Source of the DNA: Parachlorella kessleri
Lineage: Eukaryota; Chlorophyta; Trebouxiophyceae; Chlorellales; Chlorellaceae
Assembly (NCBI GenBank): GCA_001598975.1
Contig: BBXU01000352.1
Coordinates: forward strand, 1 to 22,154
Direction of reading: 5' to 3'
Length of the DNA stretch: 22,154 bases
Both the position numbers and the translations under genes were made by a program. Shown here one piece after another: positions 23 to 22,154 of the stretch. The notes under the pieces are model-generated. The model saw nothing but the letters and a program-made list of their open reading frames with translations. It was not told where the DNA came from and did not search any database. Each line of letters starts with the position of its first letter. Position 1 is the first letter of the stretch.

Positions 23-3000
23 CTGTTCCATCATCGGACCCAGACAGGAACCTGGTGGGGTCCTGCTTGGAGAAGTCCACGCTCCACACCCGGCGGGCAT
101 GCTCGTCAAAGTGTTGCAGCTCGGCGCCACCAGCACCCACGTCCCACAGCTGGATGAGGCCGTCATAATCAGCGGTGACGAGCCGGGACGCCACGTAGGC
201 GTTCCAGCTCACGCTGCTGAGCTTGCTGCGGGTGGCCATCTGAAGATGGGACACAGGAGCAGCAGGCAGCCCAGTTAGTCATCCATTTCGGGCGGTGGTG
301 GGAGTGAGGGTTGGCGAGATGGAGTCCAGTCCTTGCGCAGTACAAGCCCCCATCACAATTCCACGGCCAGAAGGTGCAAGTGTGGGCCAGCAGTGGAGCA
401 GGCCTTACCATACCTAGCTGAATGCCTTGCCAATGATTCACCTGGATGCCAGCATGCCAACCCCAAGCCTTGGCAATACGTCCTATCTGACGGTACTTAC
501 ACCATAGCAGGGCCACAACTCAAGCCAGGCAGCATGTATTCCAAACACGGCCTCACAAATCACACGGGTTGCGCAGGTAAGCTAGCATCACCTGCAGCAC
601 AGGAAAGTGTAGCGCCCCCGGCTCTCCCGCCAGGCATGCGCCAAAGTCGAAGAGCTTGATGCGGCGCGAAACTCCCACGGTCGCAAACAGGCCGTCATCG
701 CGGTCAAACGCCACGCAGCAGGCCTGCATGGCCAAGGTCAAGGCATCGGCAGAGTACATGACAGCACGAGCACATGTTGCACAACTATAACTTCCTGCAC
801 AAGGACAACAAGTACCTGTACTCCTACATTCAACAAATGGCCTGTCTGGCAGCATCGTGCAGCATCCAGCTACTGACGCCCCTACAGTAAAACTCAGGTA
901 AACCCAGCGAGCCACTGCAAGGGCGTGTGCATGGTAGACAACTAAATCGAGTGCGCAGAAGCGGTCCCAACCGCGCCATCTCAACAGTAGAAAACATCAG
1001 GCCCCATCTCACTCAAGACAGTTGCAGTGCTCCCTACATGCAGGCTACCCACACTCACCATCTCCAGTGGTGACGCCATATCGCCACAGCGCAGCGTGGC
1101 CTTGACAGTCAAGCCACCACTCCGCGACACCACCTCCAACTCCTCGCCAAAAGAATCTATCTGTGCCGTGGACCAGCCTGCAGTAGGAAGGAACAACTGC
1201 TGTAGAAGCAGACAGACAGTGCTAAAATCACCACACCCATAGCAATATCCACCTTTCAACCCAGCAGAAATATGAGTAAGAGCACACGCACTGCAAACGG
1301 CAAGAGAGGTTGAGAGGCAATGGCGATCGATCATCAAGTAACCCCCAGCGTTGACATGTGTTGAAACACCCGTGCTAACAAGACTTTTCAAAATGAATCA
1401 CTGTCCAGTGGCAGTCGAGGGGGATACCACAGGCACTGACGCAGCCAACGTCACACCCAATGCCACATTCAGTTCTGCAGCCGCTCAAGCATGGTACGCA
1501 CCTCGCGCAGGCCGCCGTGCAAAGAAGAGGTCCTCCAAATGGGGCATCGCAGCGTCCAGCTTGGCTGCTGCCGCATCATCTATGCTAGCCGCTGGCCGCT
1601 GTTGGTGCAACTGCTCTAGCGGCGCTGCTAAGCCAGCCACCTCGCCCTGCGGAGATGCACTGCCTGCGCCGCTGGCTCCTGGCCCTCCTGCGAGGCGCTG
1701 GCGCTTGCTACGCGGCTCCTGTCCTGCTTGCTGCGCTTGCTGATCCTGCTGTGACGCGTGTAGGTGCACAATGTCTGCATCCACTGACTCCAGCTGGTTC
1801 TGCAAAACACGCGCCTCAGCCTGCTTCGACTCCTTCAGCAGCTGCAGGAAGTGCCGCAAACTCTCCCCATCAGCATCCGGTCCGGGGCCGCAGCTAGCTG
1901 CTGCAGAGCCAGCCGAGGCAGTGCCCTCCGCTGCAGGCCCTGCTGCTGGCGCCAGACCCTGCCCTTGCTGGTGCTGCTGCACTGCTAGACCTGAAGCAGC
2001 AGCTCTGCTGCCCGCCAGCGGCGCTGCAGGCTGCTGCTGCGACGCACAGCTGGGCATGGCATGCTGCTGCTGTTTCCTAGCGGCCCGCGACTGCCGCGCT
2101 TGCCAGCAGGGGAGAAGGGGCAGCAGACGGTAGACTTCCTGCAAAGGAAAGAAGCCAAGCAGCAGCAATCAGCACCTGCACACGCCACACCTTCCTGGCT
2201 ACAGCAAATGTACACGACACGAGCCATCGGACTACCACTACACAGGTACAGCGAAAGCTGTTCGGCCCAGCCCAATGTCTCAAGCGATCACTTCCCGGAC
2301 TACGCACCACATTCTCTAAATCCAACCTCCCTTCTGGCAGGCCCCCAAATCGCTACCACCTATCAGAGCCCTCACTTAATTGCTGTGCTCTAGCAAGGCT
2401 TTGACACAATATGGGCTAACAGGCCGAATGCGCACTGGCACAATTCCCGCCGCACCAGGCAAGCCGCTAATTTATAACGCCAAGGCCCTCCGTCAACATG
2501 ACTCATCAACCCGGTAAGCCTCGATTTCCATACTGACTTCCACACACAAAGAAAAACGCAGCGCAAGAATGTCCCACCTGCAGCTGGCCCGAGCGGACAA
2601 GCTGCGCCACCAGTGGCCGCTGCCGGGGGTCTGCCTGCAGAAGCGCCCGAACGAATGCGCGCAGGGGAGCCAGCTCCGGGCCTGCACCTGCCAGCTCAGT
2701 CGGCAGCATCCCCGCCGCAAGCGCCGCCAGCTGGGCGCAGCGCTCCTGCACCAGGGACATGACAGACGACAACGTGAGTCGGGAAGCGCAGTTCAGAATG
2801 CATACAGGGGGCTCCTGGTGACAAAAAGTGCACAGCCCCTTAAAAAGCGATCTTCACCTGACCTCGTGCTTGGATCTAAACTTTGCTTGCCAACACCAGC
2901 ACCAGAACACCACCAGACTGCTCCCATCCTCTCCTCTTCCCACACCTCACATAATCACCACCACCATCCATTCACCACGCACTCCTCCCAAGCTTACCTG

Positions 3001-4801
3001 CGTTGATGCGCATGGTAGGAACAGGTCCACGAATAGCACCCCCAAGGAGTACAAATCTGCCGCAAGTGTCACGCCACTGCTGCTACTACCAGCTGCTGCT
3101 CGACCTGCCCCTACCGCCTGCTGCCGCTCCTCAGGGGAGGCATACAGAGAGTCAAGCACCAGCTTGACATCGCCTGACAGCCCTGCCTGCTGCTGCTGCT
3201 GTGGCTGTACGGAGGAAGGGTAAGGCGGCTCCACTGCTCGCAAGCCCTGCGGGGTAATGCCTAGGGAGTAGGGGCGCAGCCGCAACAGCGGGGCGCCATG
3301 GCCGTGACAACTCTGTAGCAAAGCTACCGCCACCCCAAAAAGTTTGAGACGCTTTTCAAGGCTAGCAGGGCTGGCTATGAAGTCGCCCAACGGAAGCGCG
3401 GCTCCGCCCTGCGCTTGCGGCAGAGCAGCCATGGCCGTGGCAACATGTTGTTGCTGCTGCGCTTGCTGCTGAGCCTGTAACTGCTGGGCCGCCGGCTGAC
3501 TTGACAAGGCTGTCACAGGAACGGCCACAGGAGTCGCCACCTGCGGCGCTGCCAACAGCTGGTCGGCCGGGACGTTGCAGGGTGCTGCCTTCAGGATAAC
3601 CTCAGCAGCAGCTGGGGCAGGGTCAACTGAGCAAGGCTCTACTACATGCAGCAAAGGCTCTGCATCAGACAGGGCTTCCGCCGCAGTTGGTCCGCTAAGG
3701 TTGAACGTTCGCTGACCATGCTCTGCAGCAGCTGCTGGCGCCAAGACCGCAAGAGCCTCTGCCGCCTGCTGTGCTCCAGGTTGGACTTGCGGCACTGTTG
3801 CTGCGCTAGCTAACTGTTTCCGCCAAACGTGCTGCCAAATATGCTGCAGCTCCTTCTTGGTGACGGGCTTCACGAGATACTCGTCAGCTCCGCCTTGCAC
3901 ACACTGCAGCACTGTCTCGTCCTGCTCGATCGACGACATCACTGCAGCAGAGGTCACACTCCAGCCGGTTACAGCAAGCACAGTAGCTTACCGAGAAGTA
4001 AAAGAAACATGAAACATGCCAGCAAATACAAAGAAAAACATGTAGGCACTGACAATGTTGGTATCATATATATATTCTGCTCAGCGCTGTTGGCCCGGCC
4101 CCCGCCCCCCCGAGCAAACCAGCACTCACTTATCACAGGAACTGAGCGGAACGAGTCGTCCTGCTTGACCAGTTGAAGCAGCTCTATTCCATTTACTTCT
4201 GGCATGCAAATATCCTGCACCACAGCAAAAGTCATAGTAAGGCTCCAGCATACTGACTGGGTGACCTTGATCCAGCCCGACCACAAACCATACTGTATAG
4301 CTTAACACTTGTAAGCTCTACGAGTGCGAACCAGGGCCAGCTAACACAACGTCTTAAACATGCTGTGGAGCCCAAACCAGGACGTCAACGGCAAGTTACC
4401 TACCGTGAGCACAAGCTGGAAAGTGCCATGGGGACTCTTCCGCAGTAACTCCATTGCCTCAGCCCCATTCTCAGCTGTGGTGACTGCACACAGTCAAAAC
4501 ACATACCTCTCTTATGACCTGTCTGTGGCCAGGCCTGTACGAGAACTTATGTGGCTCTCAGCTTCACCAGCTCCTTCTCTAGTTGCAGGACTCCCTCTCA
4601 CCTTGATAATTGCATTTCCGAAGCAGGTTGCCTACGACTGTCCTGCTCAGCCGCTCGTCGTCCACTAACAGGACATGGAGCTGCCCTGGCTGAAAGCCAC
4701 TCGCTCGGCCAGGAGGCGCTACCTTTGCCCGGATATCCCCAAGAGGGCCTGTCCGACCGGCAGCGCCCTCTAAGGCCATAGTAGGAGGGCCTTCCCTAGC
4801 G
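23..4801 (-). CDS. SPA/COP1-family WD40 protein with an N-terminal response-regulator receiver domain (3' end outside window)
   Basis: SPA proteins are cofactors of the nuclear COP1 ubiquitin ligase in light signalling. Exons in gene order: 4801-4602, 4483-4404, 4214-4130, 3941-2998, 2745-2578, 2138-1502, 1177-1059, 723-592, 239-23; all reading phases agree and give 853 residues from the ATG at 4779. Residues 33-156 form a full receiver: acidic pair D40/D41, phospho-acceptor D87 in DICMP, S117 after PVIMM, K139 in LVKP, ending in the PRR-like ELQHIWQHVWRK. After a Gln/Ala-rich linker, about 293-485 match the SPA kinase-like region (YASPEE, LAADLYSLGVLFVDLF) without visible catalytic HRD/DFG motifs. 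A coiled coil begins near 577 (LRHFLQLLKESKQ), a basic PRSKRQR lies at about 627-633, and WD40 blades run from about 735 (VAFDRDDGLFATVGV, YDGLIQLWD, VWSVDFS). No RING finger is seen, so SPA fits better than COP1. ATG 4779 is probably internal: a pyrimidine-rich acceptor precedes 4801 in an open frame. Remaining WD40 blades lie outside the window. Confidence 0.85.
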
Positions 4802-6175: not shown

Positions 6176-10515
<4,340 letters not shown>

Positions 10516-11408: not shown

Positions 11409-14400
11409 TTAGTTGCTTGCAATGCTGGTGATAGAAAGAATCATAAGGAATATGTTAATGATATCCATGTAGATCTGCAGCACAAAAGACGCACGTCAGG
11501 GGGTGCAGGCCTACTCGGTCAAAATCTGAAGTGCTCAAGACCGCAAGCGTGAGCTCTGCACGAGCCAGCCCCATCCCACTACCTACCTACCCACTCGCCT
11601 GTTCCCCACACATGGCATGGGTACCCGCGTCACCCCACCCTACTCACCTTTACAACAGACCAAGAAGCAGAGGCCTGGTAGGCAACCGCAAAGCAGCTCG
11701 CAACAGGCCTGCCACTATCAACAACACCGACAGTGTGACCGCAAGAAGATAGAGTGACTGCAGCTGCTGTGCCCTACCTGGACTGAGGCAAAGACGTACT
11801 CATCAGGGCTGATCTCATACTGCTTGCCGCCGATCACCAGCTGCAACAGACAACACGGGCGCTCAACAAGCAAGCAGAGACACCTTCTGAGACTTGACCT
11901 CCAACGCCCCAGGCAAGATGTACAGCAGGTGACCTGCAGATAGGCGGGGTCACAGACACCACCCCACCCCTACCACCACACACACACACCACCAAACGAT
12001 GGACCCCAGAGCGTGCCGCCGCAGGATACCGCCTCAAGAGAGCAGTTTCTACGATAGCACACGACCACAAGACAGCCCCCCGTAGGCCGCCAGCTCACCT
12101 GTATGTCGTACAGGAGGAAAGCCGAAAACAGCAGTGCACCGATGCAGCTAATGACCAGGTACCACCATTTGTTGGCTGCACAGCAAGGGAGGCCACCAAG
12201 GAGGAGAGGTAAGAGGCATGCTGCCCTGACCAGCCAACAAGCCCTGCCACACACACGCAGGGGGCACATAACCCCCTACATGCACCAGCGCATAGTACTG
12301 AGGCTGGTTCGTCCTAGTTGCTAGACAGCGCAGCATGTGAAAGAGGGCTGCATCCAAGATGGACTGGCAGAGAGAAGCGCGGAACGGGGCTCCTCTCCTT
12401 GCCAGCAGCCCACAGCCCCACGGCAACAATTGCAGGGTCATGGGGGGCCTCACCATAGAAGAAGCCAAGCAGAATTGTGATCAGAATCTGCAACAGGGCA
12501 TTCCAAACAGGGCGAAGTCATGACGAGCCGTAGCATTTGAGCGCCAGGATGGACAACGCCACAGCCAAGGTGCTGGCCACACGCCCACACACGTCTTGCA
12601 TGGAGATTTCATGCTACCTCCTGGCCCTCTCTCGTACCTACTGTCCTGCCCCTGCAAACTGGTGGGCCAAACACACAATGCAACAAGATGCAGGCGGTTG
12701 GCGCAAACCTATCAATCAACCTGGACATTGGAAAGGCTTTCGCCACTTTTCAGTCTTCCAAAAGAGCCACGCCCAGAGGTCGAGGCACCCCACACTGCCA
12801 GTCTGAGACTCACCGCGATGAAAAACATCATGCTCGCCGCCCCCAGGATGTGGCCGCGCTTGGTCATATCGAACGGCATCACGCACGCCAAGAAGGTAAC
12901 CCCCGCAACCACGCCCGCCGTTGTGCAAAAGGCAATCAGGACAATCTGCGCACGCCAATTGGGCACACAGGCACACTGGGTCGCCCAGGCACCAGCTCTT
13001 CCATGCAGCGTAGCCCATTGAGCCTTGTCACTGCACCCTGGACATGGCCAGCCATATCCCTGCTGGTCATGCAATCAGGGAACCCTTGCGCTGGGTAGGC
13101 TACCACTGACAGATGCCACGCTGCCAAGCAACCTCATGCACAGCAGCAGGCAGCAGGGTGTGTGAGCCCTGCTTGGCCAGTGCCGAAAGAGTATCGAGAA
13201 CCCCCCACCGGCCCGCACCTGGACATCACCGTAGGCGCACACAGCGCCCACAAGCACGCTCATGACGGCTGTGAACCCAAAGAGCGCCAGGAGGTTGTAG
13301 GGGTGCCGCCGGCGCAGCGTGGTGGAGCAGGACAGCGCGATGATGGCAACCAGCGCCAGCGCCCAGGCCGCCCAGAAGACCCACTGACCCTGGCTGCCCG
13401 ACACGTAATGCTTGACGGGCTTGACAAACCTGATGGGGGGAAATTGAACTCGGGTTGTTTGCGGCTATTGTAACATTAACCTTCCCTCCCAACCAACCCT
13501 AACCTAACCTAACCAACCTAAACCTGGTAACCTTCAAACCCTAACCCTACAGCTGTTGGAGCAGGGGCCAGCCCGCATAATAGCGGCAATGCACAGCACT
13601 TCGGCAACAGTTTTTACCGAAGGGGAGGGGTACAGCAATGCACTGCGCTGCAACTGCCACCACCGCGCTTCCACCTCGCTGAATGCGGCACAACCAGGGC
13701 TCCACCATGTGCATGCAGTGCTCAGTAAGGGAGGCAGAAGGGCATGCTAGGAGCAATGCAAGTGTCAGCGGGCATCGGTTCAGCAACTTGGCGCCAGATT
13801 TGCCTGCTGTCGCCCCACTTCCACGGGGCTAACCTCGTCCTTTAACTAATTTCAAAGCAACTCACATGAACACGCAGGCCACGCCGGTCGTGATGGCAAT
13901 CTGCAGCGCCACCAGCAGGAACACCTTGCGCACAAACGCAGTGCGCACCGCCCGCTCGGCAAAGCTGCCGGCCGCGGCGGCAGCTGCAGCCGCCTCTGGG
14001 TCATACCCTGCTTAGGAAGGAGCAGCACTGTACTGGTGTCAAAGGTACTGACAAGTGCAAAGGCTGGTGGTATACATAGCCGCTGCCCCACTGGCCGTCC
14101 CTGCTGGGGCCGGCCGTGCCCAGTGGATTCAGCTAACTCGCAGAACGTGGTCCCAAAGGTATCCACCGCAGCTGGGAGGGACACCTTGCCACAACAGCAG
14201 CCATGGGCTGAGACATGGACTTCCTGCATGGCCGCCGCCAAGCTGGCTGCCAGCACCTGCCTTGGTAGGCAAGGCAAGCCTTGTGCAGGCAGCCCGGCAG
14301 CACGGGTCCTCATCAACAGTAAGCATCCCTTGGGTACCCATACCCAATGCATTGCCCACACCGGCAGCTCCTGAGTGCACGCGCTCAACATACACACTCC

Positions 14401-21400: not shown

Positions 21401-22109
21401 GTACAACTGGAGCGCCAGGTGGGTTGTAGTCTAGGTGGTTTTGACAATGTACCGCCCGCGGTCATGCTGCCATGTGCTCCCAGTTAGGACCAGCAAGGTG
21501 GGTCAGATTGGTGACTCCGTGCCAGGTCGCACAGAGAAAGCGTGTGCTGAGTTCCTGGGGCGCAGAAGAAGCGTGTGTTGAGTTTTTGGGGCGCCAGCGT
21601 GGCACCGGGTGCCTTGCATGCCCTCGCGGACTCGGCTCAGTGTACCTGTTACCCATGCGCTGGCTTTCAGGCGCACTCGGACTCGCCACGTCCTCCCACG
21701 GCTGCCGGCCGACCCCTCATACCAGACATGTGCTTGTTTGTGTGGTCTGTGCGAAGCCCCTGCGGCGTGCCGGCACAAGTGCTCCCCTGGACATAAATGC
21801 CACCTGGAGCTGTGCCCTGGTTCCCGCCCGCTGGCCCACCCGCTAAAGCACCCGGGGCCGCAGCAGCCTCCCACTGGGAGCCGGCTGTAGGCAGTGGAGC
21901 AAGTCCCCCCTGATGTGATGCTGCGTGCCACGGTGTGCTGTGCAGGGCGCAGCGGTCCCTTGCCCGCAATGCCATGCGGCGCGGTGACTGGCCAGGCACT
22001 TCTCGCCACTGGGAACTGGCCCTGGCGCTCAACCCGCTCAACCCCGAGGGCTGGTTCGCCCTGGGCTTTGCGTACATCAAGCAGAAGGACTACCCCAAGG
22101 CACTACAGG
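15444..22109 (+). CDS. TTC27: TTC27/Emw1-type tetratricopeptide repeat protein (3' end outside window)
   Basis: TTC27 (yeast Emw1) is a conserved essential TPR protein of poorly defined role. Exons: 15444-15928, 16562-16958, 17019-17163, 17464-17613, 17993-18174, 18530-18652, 19111-19224, 19705-19850, 20307-20472, 21169-21302, 21946-22109; 735 residues visible, phases consistent. Family landmarks in order: GLDQLQQGNYVAAL, LYLFLQANLTGP, GEEVIGRISSPQYLLLAK, the QLTGALGVRT stretch, VLPHPRL, RTRERALLALEQ, LKKELGELLVAAGVLGAALP, PRLWCTLGDLTLED, RSARAQRSLARNAMRRGDW and the TPR helix pair GWFALGFAYIKQKDYPKAL. Exon 2 encodes His-rich, Q8 and E5 tracts absent from typical homologues. Exon 3 and the 60-nt intron before it are the weakest parts, as the sequence there is not conserved and stays open. 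The start ATG (MSALGMHLLLSSLAA) suits the plant-type N-terminus but an upstream exon is possible. Several introns contain copies of adjoining splice sites; intron 6 is GC-AG. Confidence 0.88.
16006..16345. repeat. About 195-bp tandem duplication in TTC27 intron 1
   Basis: The block from TGTACAT at 16006 recurs from 16202 with small indels: GGTTGGTTG, CATATCCAGGCGTG, the stretch TGGCCTGGGGTAGCATGCTG, and CCAGCAGCATGCGCT are all shared in order. Offset falls from 196 to 192 along the unit. Similarity fades after about 16345. It fills half of the 633-nt intron (15929-16561). Confidence 0.9.
16719..16757 (+). repeat. CAG and GAG trinucleotide repeats inside TTC27 exon 2
   Basis: A run of CAG units followed by GAG units encodes eight Gln then five Glu, preceded by a His/Pro-rich stretch. 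It is in frame and coding, in a loop-like region between conserved helices. Confidence 0.9.
18389..18567 (+). repeat. Tandem duplication of the TTC27 exon 6 acceptor, upstream copy broken by a stop
   Basis: The upstream copy at 18389-18467 (GTCTGAGCAAGGCCTTT, then GTCCAG and GTATCCAGGGAGCTTCAGGG) matches the functional copy at 18496-18567 (GTCTGAAGAAGCCTTT, then TTGCAG and GTGTCCCAGGAGCTTCAGGG). Exon-start positions 18431 and 18530 differ by 99 nt. The upstream copy reads VSRELQGR then TAG, so it is a dead pseudo-exon. Confidence 0.85.
18653..19110 (+). other. GC-AG intron 6 of TTC27
   Basis: The exon ends CTG GAA CAG and is followed by GCAAGC; the acceptor is AAAGTTGCAG at 19101-19110. Joining CAG to GCG in phase 0 gives SLEQ-ALLLALASHVEKGSSS, which follows the plant TTC27 pattern. 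No GT donor nearby preserves the frame as simply. Confidence 0.7.
18864..18879. repeat. CTAG tetranucleotide repeat in TTC27 intron 6
   Basis: Four perfect CTAG units. Each unit is palindromic, so the run can pair with itself. No coding role. Confidence 0.85.
19605..19682. repeat. Degenerate GACT/GACC tetranucleotide array in TTC27 intron 7
   Basis: About 78 bases of CTGA/GACT-type units with scattered changes (GACTGACCACT, GGCTGACTGACT, GACCGAGTGACT), ending just before the acceptor of exon 8 at 19704. A G-rich run also lies earlier in the same 480-nt intron. Confidence 0.8.
20445..20685 (+). repeat. Three copies of the TTC27 exon 9 5' splice site
   Basis: AAGGTGCAG followed by a GT donor occurs at 20464-20472 (GTTAGTC, the site used here), 20521-20529 (GTCAGTC) and 20664-20672 (GTCAGTC). 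The first and third copies also share the upstream CAGCTGCTGGGCA exon sequence. Copies two and three lie in the 696-nt intron 9. Confidence 0.85.
21291..21420 (+). repeat. Three tandem copies of the TTC27 exon 10 edge and 5' splice site
   Basis: CCGCAGCGCCAG|GTGAGT at 21291 is followed by CCGCAGCGTCAGGCGG at 21350 and TGGAGCGCCAG|GTGGGT at 21408, a period of about 58 bp. The intervening DNA also repeats (ACCACCGGC, then TACAAC). The middle copy has lost the GT. Reading past the first site meets TGA at once. Confidence 0.8.
21534..21593. repeat. About 31-bp tandem repeat in TTC27 intron 10
   Basis: Two units of the form AGAA(A)GCGTGTG(C/T)TGAGTT followed by TGGGGCGC, in the 643-nt intron 10 (21303-21945). 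No gene was recognised elsewhere in that intron. Confidence 0.8.
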
Positions 22110-22110
22110 G

Positions 22111-22112
<2 letters not shown>

Positions 22113-22154
<42 letters not shown>
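22113..22154. repeat. AT dinucleotide microsatellite at the window end
   Basis: Pure AT units begin two bases after the GT donor that follows TTC27 exon 11 and run to the last base of the window, so the full length is unknown. Confidence 0.95.

Follow-up and report, generated by a model that had tools for sequence, protein, structure and literature searches.

The stretch of DNA analysed here, referred to as the window, is a contig of 22,154 nucleotides from the green alga Parachlorella kessleri (BBXU01000352.1 of assembly GCA_001598975.1, read on the forward strand). It carries a minus-strand gene in which a response-regulator receiver domain precedes the parts of an SPA-type protein, the partner of the COP1 ubiquitin ligase. 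The gene is organised into nine exons with GT-AG borders between 4779 and 23, which upon splicing give a single open frame of 853 residues that runs into the contig end inside the WD40 propeller. Because the window is exactly one contig (C212 in our numbering of the 50.9-Mb P. kessleri assembly that was searched), the final WD40 blades are absent from the window gene. The product is letter-for-letter identical to residues 1-853 of P0001 (Parachlorella kessleri N2152v2_010996, 1060 residues, named hypothetical), which is annotated on a 2,035,142-base contig of a different assembly and has the same start as exon 1. A search of the P. kessleri genome with P0001 returned near-identical exons on C212 only, the remaining matches being 31-46% identical. 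The features of the gene are the following:

4602..4779, minus strand: exon 1, start codon, N-terminal tail and receiver beta1-alpha1 with D40 and D41 (splice model, Pfam; start shared with annotated P0001)
4404..4483, minus strand: exon 2, receiver beta2-alpha2-beta3 (splice model, Pfam)
4130..4214, minus strand: exon 3, receiver with phospho-acceptor D87, alpha3 and beta4 (splice model, Pfam, codon check)
2998..3941, minus strand: exon 4, receiver end (S117, K139, helix 5 ...WQHVWRK), linker and start of the kinase-like region (single uninterrupted frame)
2578..2745, minus strand: exon 5, kinase-like region (splice model, SPA profile)
1502..2138, minus strand: exon 6, end of the kinase-like region, Gln/Ala-rich linker and coiled coil (splice model, structure model)
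1059..1177, minus strand: exon 7, helix preceding the propeller and WD40 start (splice model, structure model)
592..723, minus strand: exon 8, WD40 blade (splice model, genome search)
23..239, minus strand: exon 9, WD40 with Val-Pro (VP) pocket residues K787, Y806, R831 and W833; the gene leaves the contig here (splice model, pocket alignment)
3814..4674, minus strand: receiver, residues 36-157, exons 1-4 (Pfam; predicted alternating strands and helices)
3790..3795, minus strand: Val164-Pro165, candidate COP1-docking VP motif right behind receiver helix 5 (VP count, codon check)
2115..3390, minus strand: degenerate SPA kinase-like region, residues about 299-493, exons 4-6 (profile match 398-486; helices in the model)
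1877-1722, minus strand: coiled coil, residues 573-624 (long helix in the model, aligned with COP1 in 9w90_C)

The earlier note on this DNA, made from the letters alone, had placed a receiver with D40/D41, D87, S117 and K139 at 3817-4683 and had proposed a Pfam check. The Pfam scan of the window protein gave a Response_reg match at residues 36-148 with 93.5 bits (E 1.2e-26), not below the cut-off of 30.2 bits. The domain lies at 4674-3814 and all five residues are exactly as named (codons D40 4662-4660, D41 4659-4657, D87 4214-4212, S117 3936-3934 and K139 3870-3868). In addition, the predicted structure has alternating strands and helices at residues 35-162, with a block predicted local distance difference test (pLDDT) score of at least 90 for residues 31-150.

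Behind the receiver, a profile of the SPA kinase-like region matches residues 398-486 (E 2.3e-12). The same profile matched none of 40 RING-pattern proteins and none of 123 other fetched proteins. It was built from seven receiver-less SPA sequences (five named seed plants and two unnamed), left from 19 candidate rows after dropping 6 and another 6, and it superseded an earlier profile that spanned the coiled coil and also matched COP1 controls. Judged by the profile match, the kinase-like region of the window protein is real but weak and degenerate. A coiled coil and then a COP1-type WD40 propeller follow, and no RING was found in the Pfam scan of residues 1-853 or among the domains listed for P0001. 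COP1 is encoded by a separate gene on contig C23, with a RING exon and COP1 WD40 exons; given this gene and the missing RING, an assignment to COP1 rather than SPA was rejected. In an unrooted WD40 tree of 35 chosen fetched proteins and the COP1 exons of the P. kessleri genome, a branch (96/89) sets the COP1 rows apart, and the window protein sits on its other side with core chlorophyte rows. The matches listed by a fold search were all WD40 or COP1, hence this search is little test of the receiver or the kinase-like region. By its domain content, then, the gene is identified as the chlorophyte orthologue of SPA, as the earlier note had read it when it described the fusion of a receiver with a COP1 cofactor of SPA type. 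A further COP1/SPA-like WD40 frame of 337 residues was seen at C1119:21624-22352, its matched pieces being 43-45% identical to the SPA propeller; we presume that it might be a RUP-type protein.

The earlier note had also suggested a survey of chlorophyte SPA proteins for the same domain order. The set of relatives comprised 292 proteins fetched in three protein searches, two of which listed 120 of 159 and 120 of 148 matches, and a receiver of this type was joined to a COP1/SPA WD40 in at least 79 of them. Named sources among the matches listed include Chlorella, Micractinium, Nannochloris, Myrmecia, Trebouxia, Coccomyxa, Elliptochloris and Tetradesmus, and further Dunaliella, Gonium, Volvox africanus, Pleodorina, Astrephomene and Cymbomonas; Botryococcus and Picochlorum are also there by database label, as are two metagenome clusters of 250 and 260 member sequences. 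The labels were read on our own assumption, Botrbrau being taken as Botryococcus, Picsp as Picochlorum, Mesvir1 as Mesostigma, Mesen1 as Mesotaenium and SM000 as Spirogloea. The receiver-SPA fusion is common in green algae and is not peculiar to P. kessleri. The SPA kinase-like region was detected in 65 fetched proteins, 36 with a receiver and 29 without. The receiver-less group includes 18 named land plants and two SM000-labelled rows, and the 36 with a receiver contain no named land plant, which agrees with the expectation that land-plant SPA proteins have no receiver. Two proteins, P0011 (Nannochloris) and P0121, keep the receiver and the WD40 and gave no kinase-like match.

The receiver and the kinase-like region meet within one exon, since exon 4 (3941-2998) encodes residues 115-429 uninterrupted and thereby spans the receiver's last third, the linker and the beginning of the kinase-like region. 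The seam therefore needs no doubtful splice, as had been argued from the letters. Taken alone, the exon 4 frame reaches 18.3 bits with Response_reg, which is below the cut-off because the first two thirds of the receiver are encoded by exons 1-3. These three exons are short and the P. kessleri exon model here derives from genomic sequence alone, so that an adjacent receiver gene and an SPA gene might have been merged by the gene model. However, the seam is inside a single open exon, and the identical domain order recurs in 79 proteins of many sources and in the transcript-derived P0139; such an artefact is highly improbable and was rejected.

The phosphorylation site has been kept with great fidelity. 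The acid pair, the acceptor aspartate, the switch serine and the lysine are present in all 66 complete receivers and in three streptophyte rows, a count that omits the 13 of the 79 receiver-WD40 proteins having an incomplete receiver. Helix 5 (WqHV.r) and the segment before it are also strongly conserved among receiver proteins. Furthermore, in 2138 of the 2145 pairs formed by the 66, identity is higher in the receiver than in the WD40 core, although these pairs are not independent. As far as sequence comparison can tell, the receiver is no relic, being more tightly kept than the propeller. A dead pseudo-receiver was rejected because the phospho-acceptor aspartate is retained in 66/66 and D87 is present in the window.

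As to descent, the closest solved structure by sequence is the ARR1 receiver (85.4 bits), and IWQHV.RK is common to both; a structure alignment took in 42 of the 292 fetched proteins. In a receiver tree, SPA receivers, ARR1 and a P. kessleri TOC1-like receiver are split (86/90) from 20 other receivers, namely CheY and 19 fetched rows treated as bacterial, several of them metagenomic; branching within the SPA/ARR1/TOC1-like group is unresolved and nine rows are long. Two of the three receiver introns (after Q59 and after I114, both phase 1) match exactly those of the TOC1-like gene on C672, where CCT matches lie on the same strand as the receiver. These shared positions and phases tie the SPA receiver to the receivers of clock regulators, and together with the tree they leave a recent bacterial acquisition without support. 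The idea of a clock-type pseudo-receiver, raised in the earlier note, thus holds with regard to descent but fails with regard to a dead receiver. No CCT match was found in the Pfam scan of residues 1-853 or among the domains listed for full-length P0001. The TOC1-like receiver itself (C672:29500-35500) keeps an aspartate at the acceptor position (LTDLLMPE); in land-plant pseudo-receivers the acceptor aspartate is replaced.

Possible phosphate donors are encoded in the same genome. A single Hpt match was found, on C77 (HQFKGSSASFGA; 47.1 bits on this piece). The minus strand of C1150 carries an array that may be one gene, in which a LOV core (GRNCRFLQG) and an H-box (SHEIRTPL) occur together with an ATP-binding motif and a receiver; C123 has another HisKA match. 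For Ostreococcus it has been proposed that LOV- and rhodopsin-histidine kinases feed TOC1 via HPT, according to the available part of that report (PMC12704426). We propose that green-algal SPA, built of a receiver, a linker, a degenerate kinase-like region, a coiled coil and a COP1-type WD40, is a response regulator through which a phosphorelay may act on the COP1 ligase, and assign this reading a probability of roughly 55%; the action on the ligase is what we infer from sequence. A histidine kinase, here most likely of the LOV type, would phosphorylate D87 through HPt, upon which the alpha4-beta5-alpha5 face of the receiver and the long helix 5 would change shape. This change could alter either the assembly of SPA with COP1 or the presentation of targets to COP1, and the result would be an altered destruction of CONSTANS-type factors and an altered expression of photoprotection genes.

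Alternatively, the receiver could be a docking or dimerisation module that works independently of phosphorylation, its fold and charged pocket being kept for binding a partner such as TOC1, HPt, a photoreceptor or COP1. The strong conservation of helix 5 and the preceding segment and the two introns shared with the TOC1-like receiver are consistent with this possibility, and the TOC1 family is known for protein-protein work. Nevertheless, pure docking leaves the retention of the acid pair, acceptor, switch serine and lysine in 66/66 receivers unexplained, and we consider it rather unlikely.

A third possibility concerns the segment that follows the receiver. A Val-Pro pair occurs 4-8 residues past the receiver in 60 of 82 proteins, as compared to 103 of 2351 equal-length linker windows further downstream, and 33 of the 60 VP-bearing proteins have VP-x-hydrophobic. 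The VP pocket is kept in the window protein (K787, Y806, R831 and W833, with R916 and F978 from P0001) and largely so in 66 relatives. In the part of the literature available, COP1 partners compete via VP peptides, and K767 and W812 of Arabidopsis SPA1, the equivalents of K422 and W467, are essential for function (PMC6745501). It is thus conceivable that in one phosphorylation state the built-in Val-Pro segment fills the WD40 pocket of COP1 or SPA and keeps substrates out, in the way that UVR8 and CRY act in trans. However, there is no VP pair in 22 of the 82 proteins, including Volvox, Gonium, Dunaliella, Tetradesmus, five named Trebouxia rows and the three streptophyte rows, and the 60 bearers are related and do not count as 60 independent events. 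The published signature moreover has E/D after VP (PMC6745501, as far as available), a position that is mostly Q, H or R here, and the segment has low confidence in the structure model. Gating of this kind is therefore distinctly unlikely in our estimation. In 13/13 metagenomic relatives (P0193-P0201 and P0204-P0207), another two Val-Pro pairs were noted in a second segment, HGVPxVP, 29-31 residues behind WQHVWR.

The fusion may be old. P0224 (label Mesvir1, a streptophyte) has a receiver scoring 109.6 bits with our own profile and 77.5 bits with Response_reg, as well as a strong SPA kinase-like match (E 2.2e-34), its gene model ending before the WD40. It follows that the fusion is probably older than the divergence of chlorophytes and streptophytes, with a loss on the way to land plants, and one origin before the split with at least two losses is the simplest reading of the sequences. 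Separately, the zygnematophyte gene models Closterium P0147 and P0191 (label Mesen1) have an SPA-type receiver and no WD40 in the same model, which may reflect split models or a receiver that is a separate protein. A bolder version, which is speculative and which we deem unlikely, holds that the common ancestor of all green-plant SPA proteins was a response regulator and that the COP1/SPA switch began under a His-Asp phosphorelay. The receiver would have exposed or hidden a VP peptide aimed at the COP1/SPA pocket; land plants would later have dropped the receiver, leaving the gating to photoreceptors with VP peptides of their own.

Several observations weigh against the proposed phosphorelay control of SPA. 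The receiver proteins do not form one group in the unrooted WD40 tree, where P0195 and P0207 (metagenomic) and P0152 stand beside COP1 (98/95 and 91/84); well-supported branches of that tree require the receiver label to change three times, and the tree gives no proof of a single origin. The SPA profile found no kinase-like region in P0195 and P0207, nor in 47 of 83 receiver proteins overall. Conversely, P0106 (label 'Pyrami...', Pyramimonas-type) and its relative P0093, both among the 29 receiver-less proteins, have the kinase-like region without a receiver, by loss or truncation. The LOV kinase array carries a receiver of its own, and other receivers on C124, C546, C980 and C672 are alternative phosphorelay targets. 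Finally, Chlamydomonas SPA1 is not among the matches listed, and the link to genetics therefore runs via Volvox, Gonium, Pleodorina, Astrephomene and Dunaliella.

Elsewhere in the window, the plus strand near the SPA gene holds parts of a regulatory ATPase of the 26S proteasome type at 7209-7460, 8445-8873 and 9310-9768, with matches to Prot_ATP_ID_OB_C and AAA, and adjoining frames to about 10515 resemble more of it. A weak match to Bax1-I (Bax-inhibitor type; 22.2 bits, below the cut-off) lies on the minus strand at 12712-13074, with adjoining frames that resemble more membrane protein. TPR repeats occupy 21914-22153 on the plus strand, followed by a simple TA-type repeat at the right contig end.

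The bare domain call is not new, since database entries already read 'Response regulatory domain-containing protein'. The open-licence literature searched, as far as its texts were available, yielded a single report on an algal protein with receiver and WD40 (PMC12704426, 2025). It concerns the 'REC-WD40' of Ostreococcus, Bathycoccus and Micromonas, which is described there as conserved in Mamiellales and as a putative response regulator. The inputs to algal SPA1 named in the accessible parts of two further papers (PMC6736836 and PMC8775618) are UVR8 and phototropin, and 'receiver' and 'response regulator' have zero occurrences in their main texts. The accessible part of PMC8024647 describes SPA as a kinase-like domain, a coil and WD repeats, and mentions no algae, Chlamydomonas or receiver. 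New here are the recognition of the protein as SPA, its occurrence outside Mamiellales, the streptophyte example, the introns shared with a TOC1-like gene and the VP motif. The fusion would offer a direct, little-explored wire between two-component signalling and the ubiquitin ligase that controls algal photoprotection and plant photomorphogenesis; should the receiver be ancestral, the difference would stem from an input lost in land plants and not from one gained in algae.

To conclude, the window protein can be compared with five known systems. It shares with land-plant SPA1-SPA4 the kinase-like region, the coiled coil, the COP1-type WD40, the absence of a RING and the K422 and W467 equivalents, but differs from them in its N-terminal receiver with an intact phosphorylation site and in the weak conservation of its kinase-like region; from COP1, encoded separately on C23, it differs by lacking a RING. 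Similarly to TOC1 and the pseudo-response regulators, it has a plant-type receiver, with two intron positions and phases in common with the P. kessleri TOC1-like gene, whereas it has no CCT and its acceptor aspartate is present. Type-B response regulators provide the best PDB match of the receiver (ARR1, with the shared IWQHV.RK); the DNA-binding output of ARR1 is a GARP domain, in contrast to the coil and WD40 found here. The Mamiellales REC-WD40 agrees with the window protein in architecture, both having a receiver and a WD40; in the available text of that report it is not called SPA, COP1 has 0 main-text occurrences, and the protein is not followed outside Mamiellales (PMC12704426).
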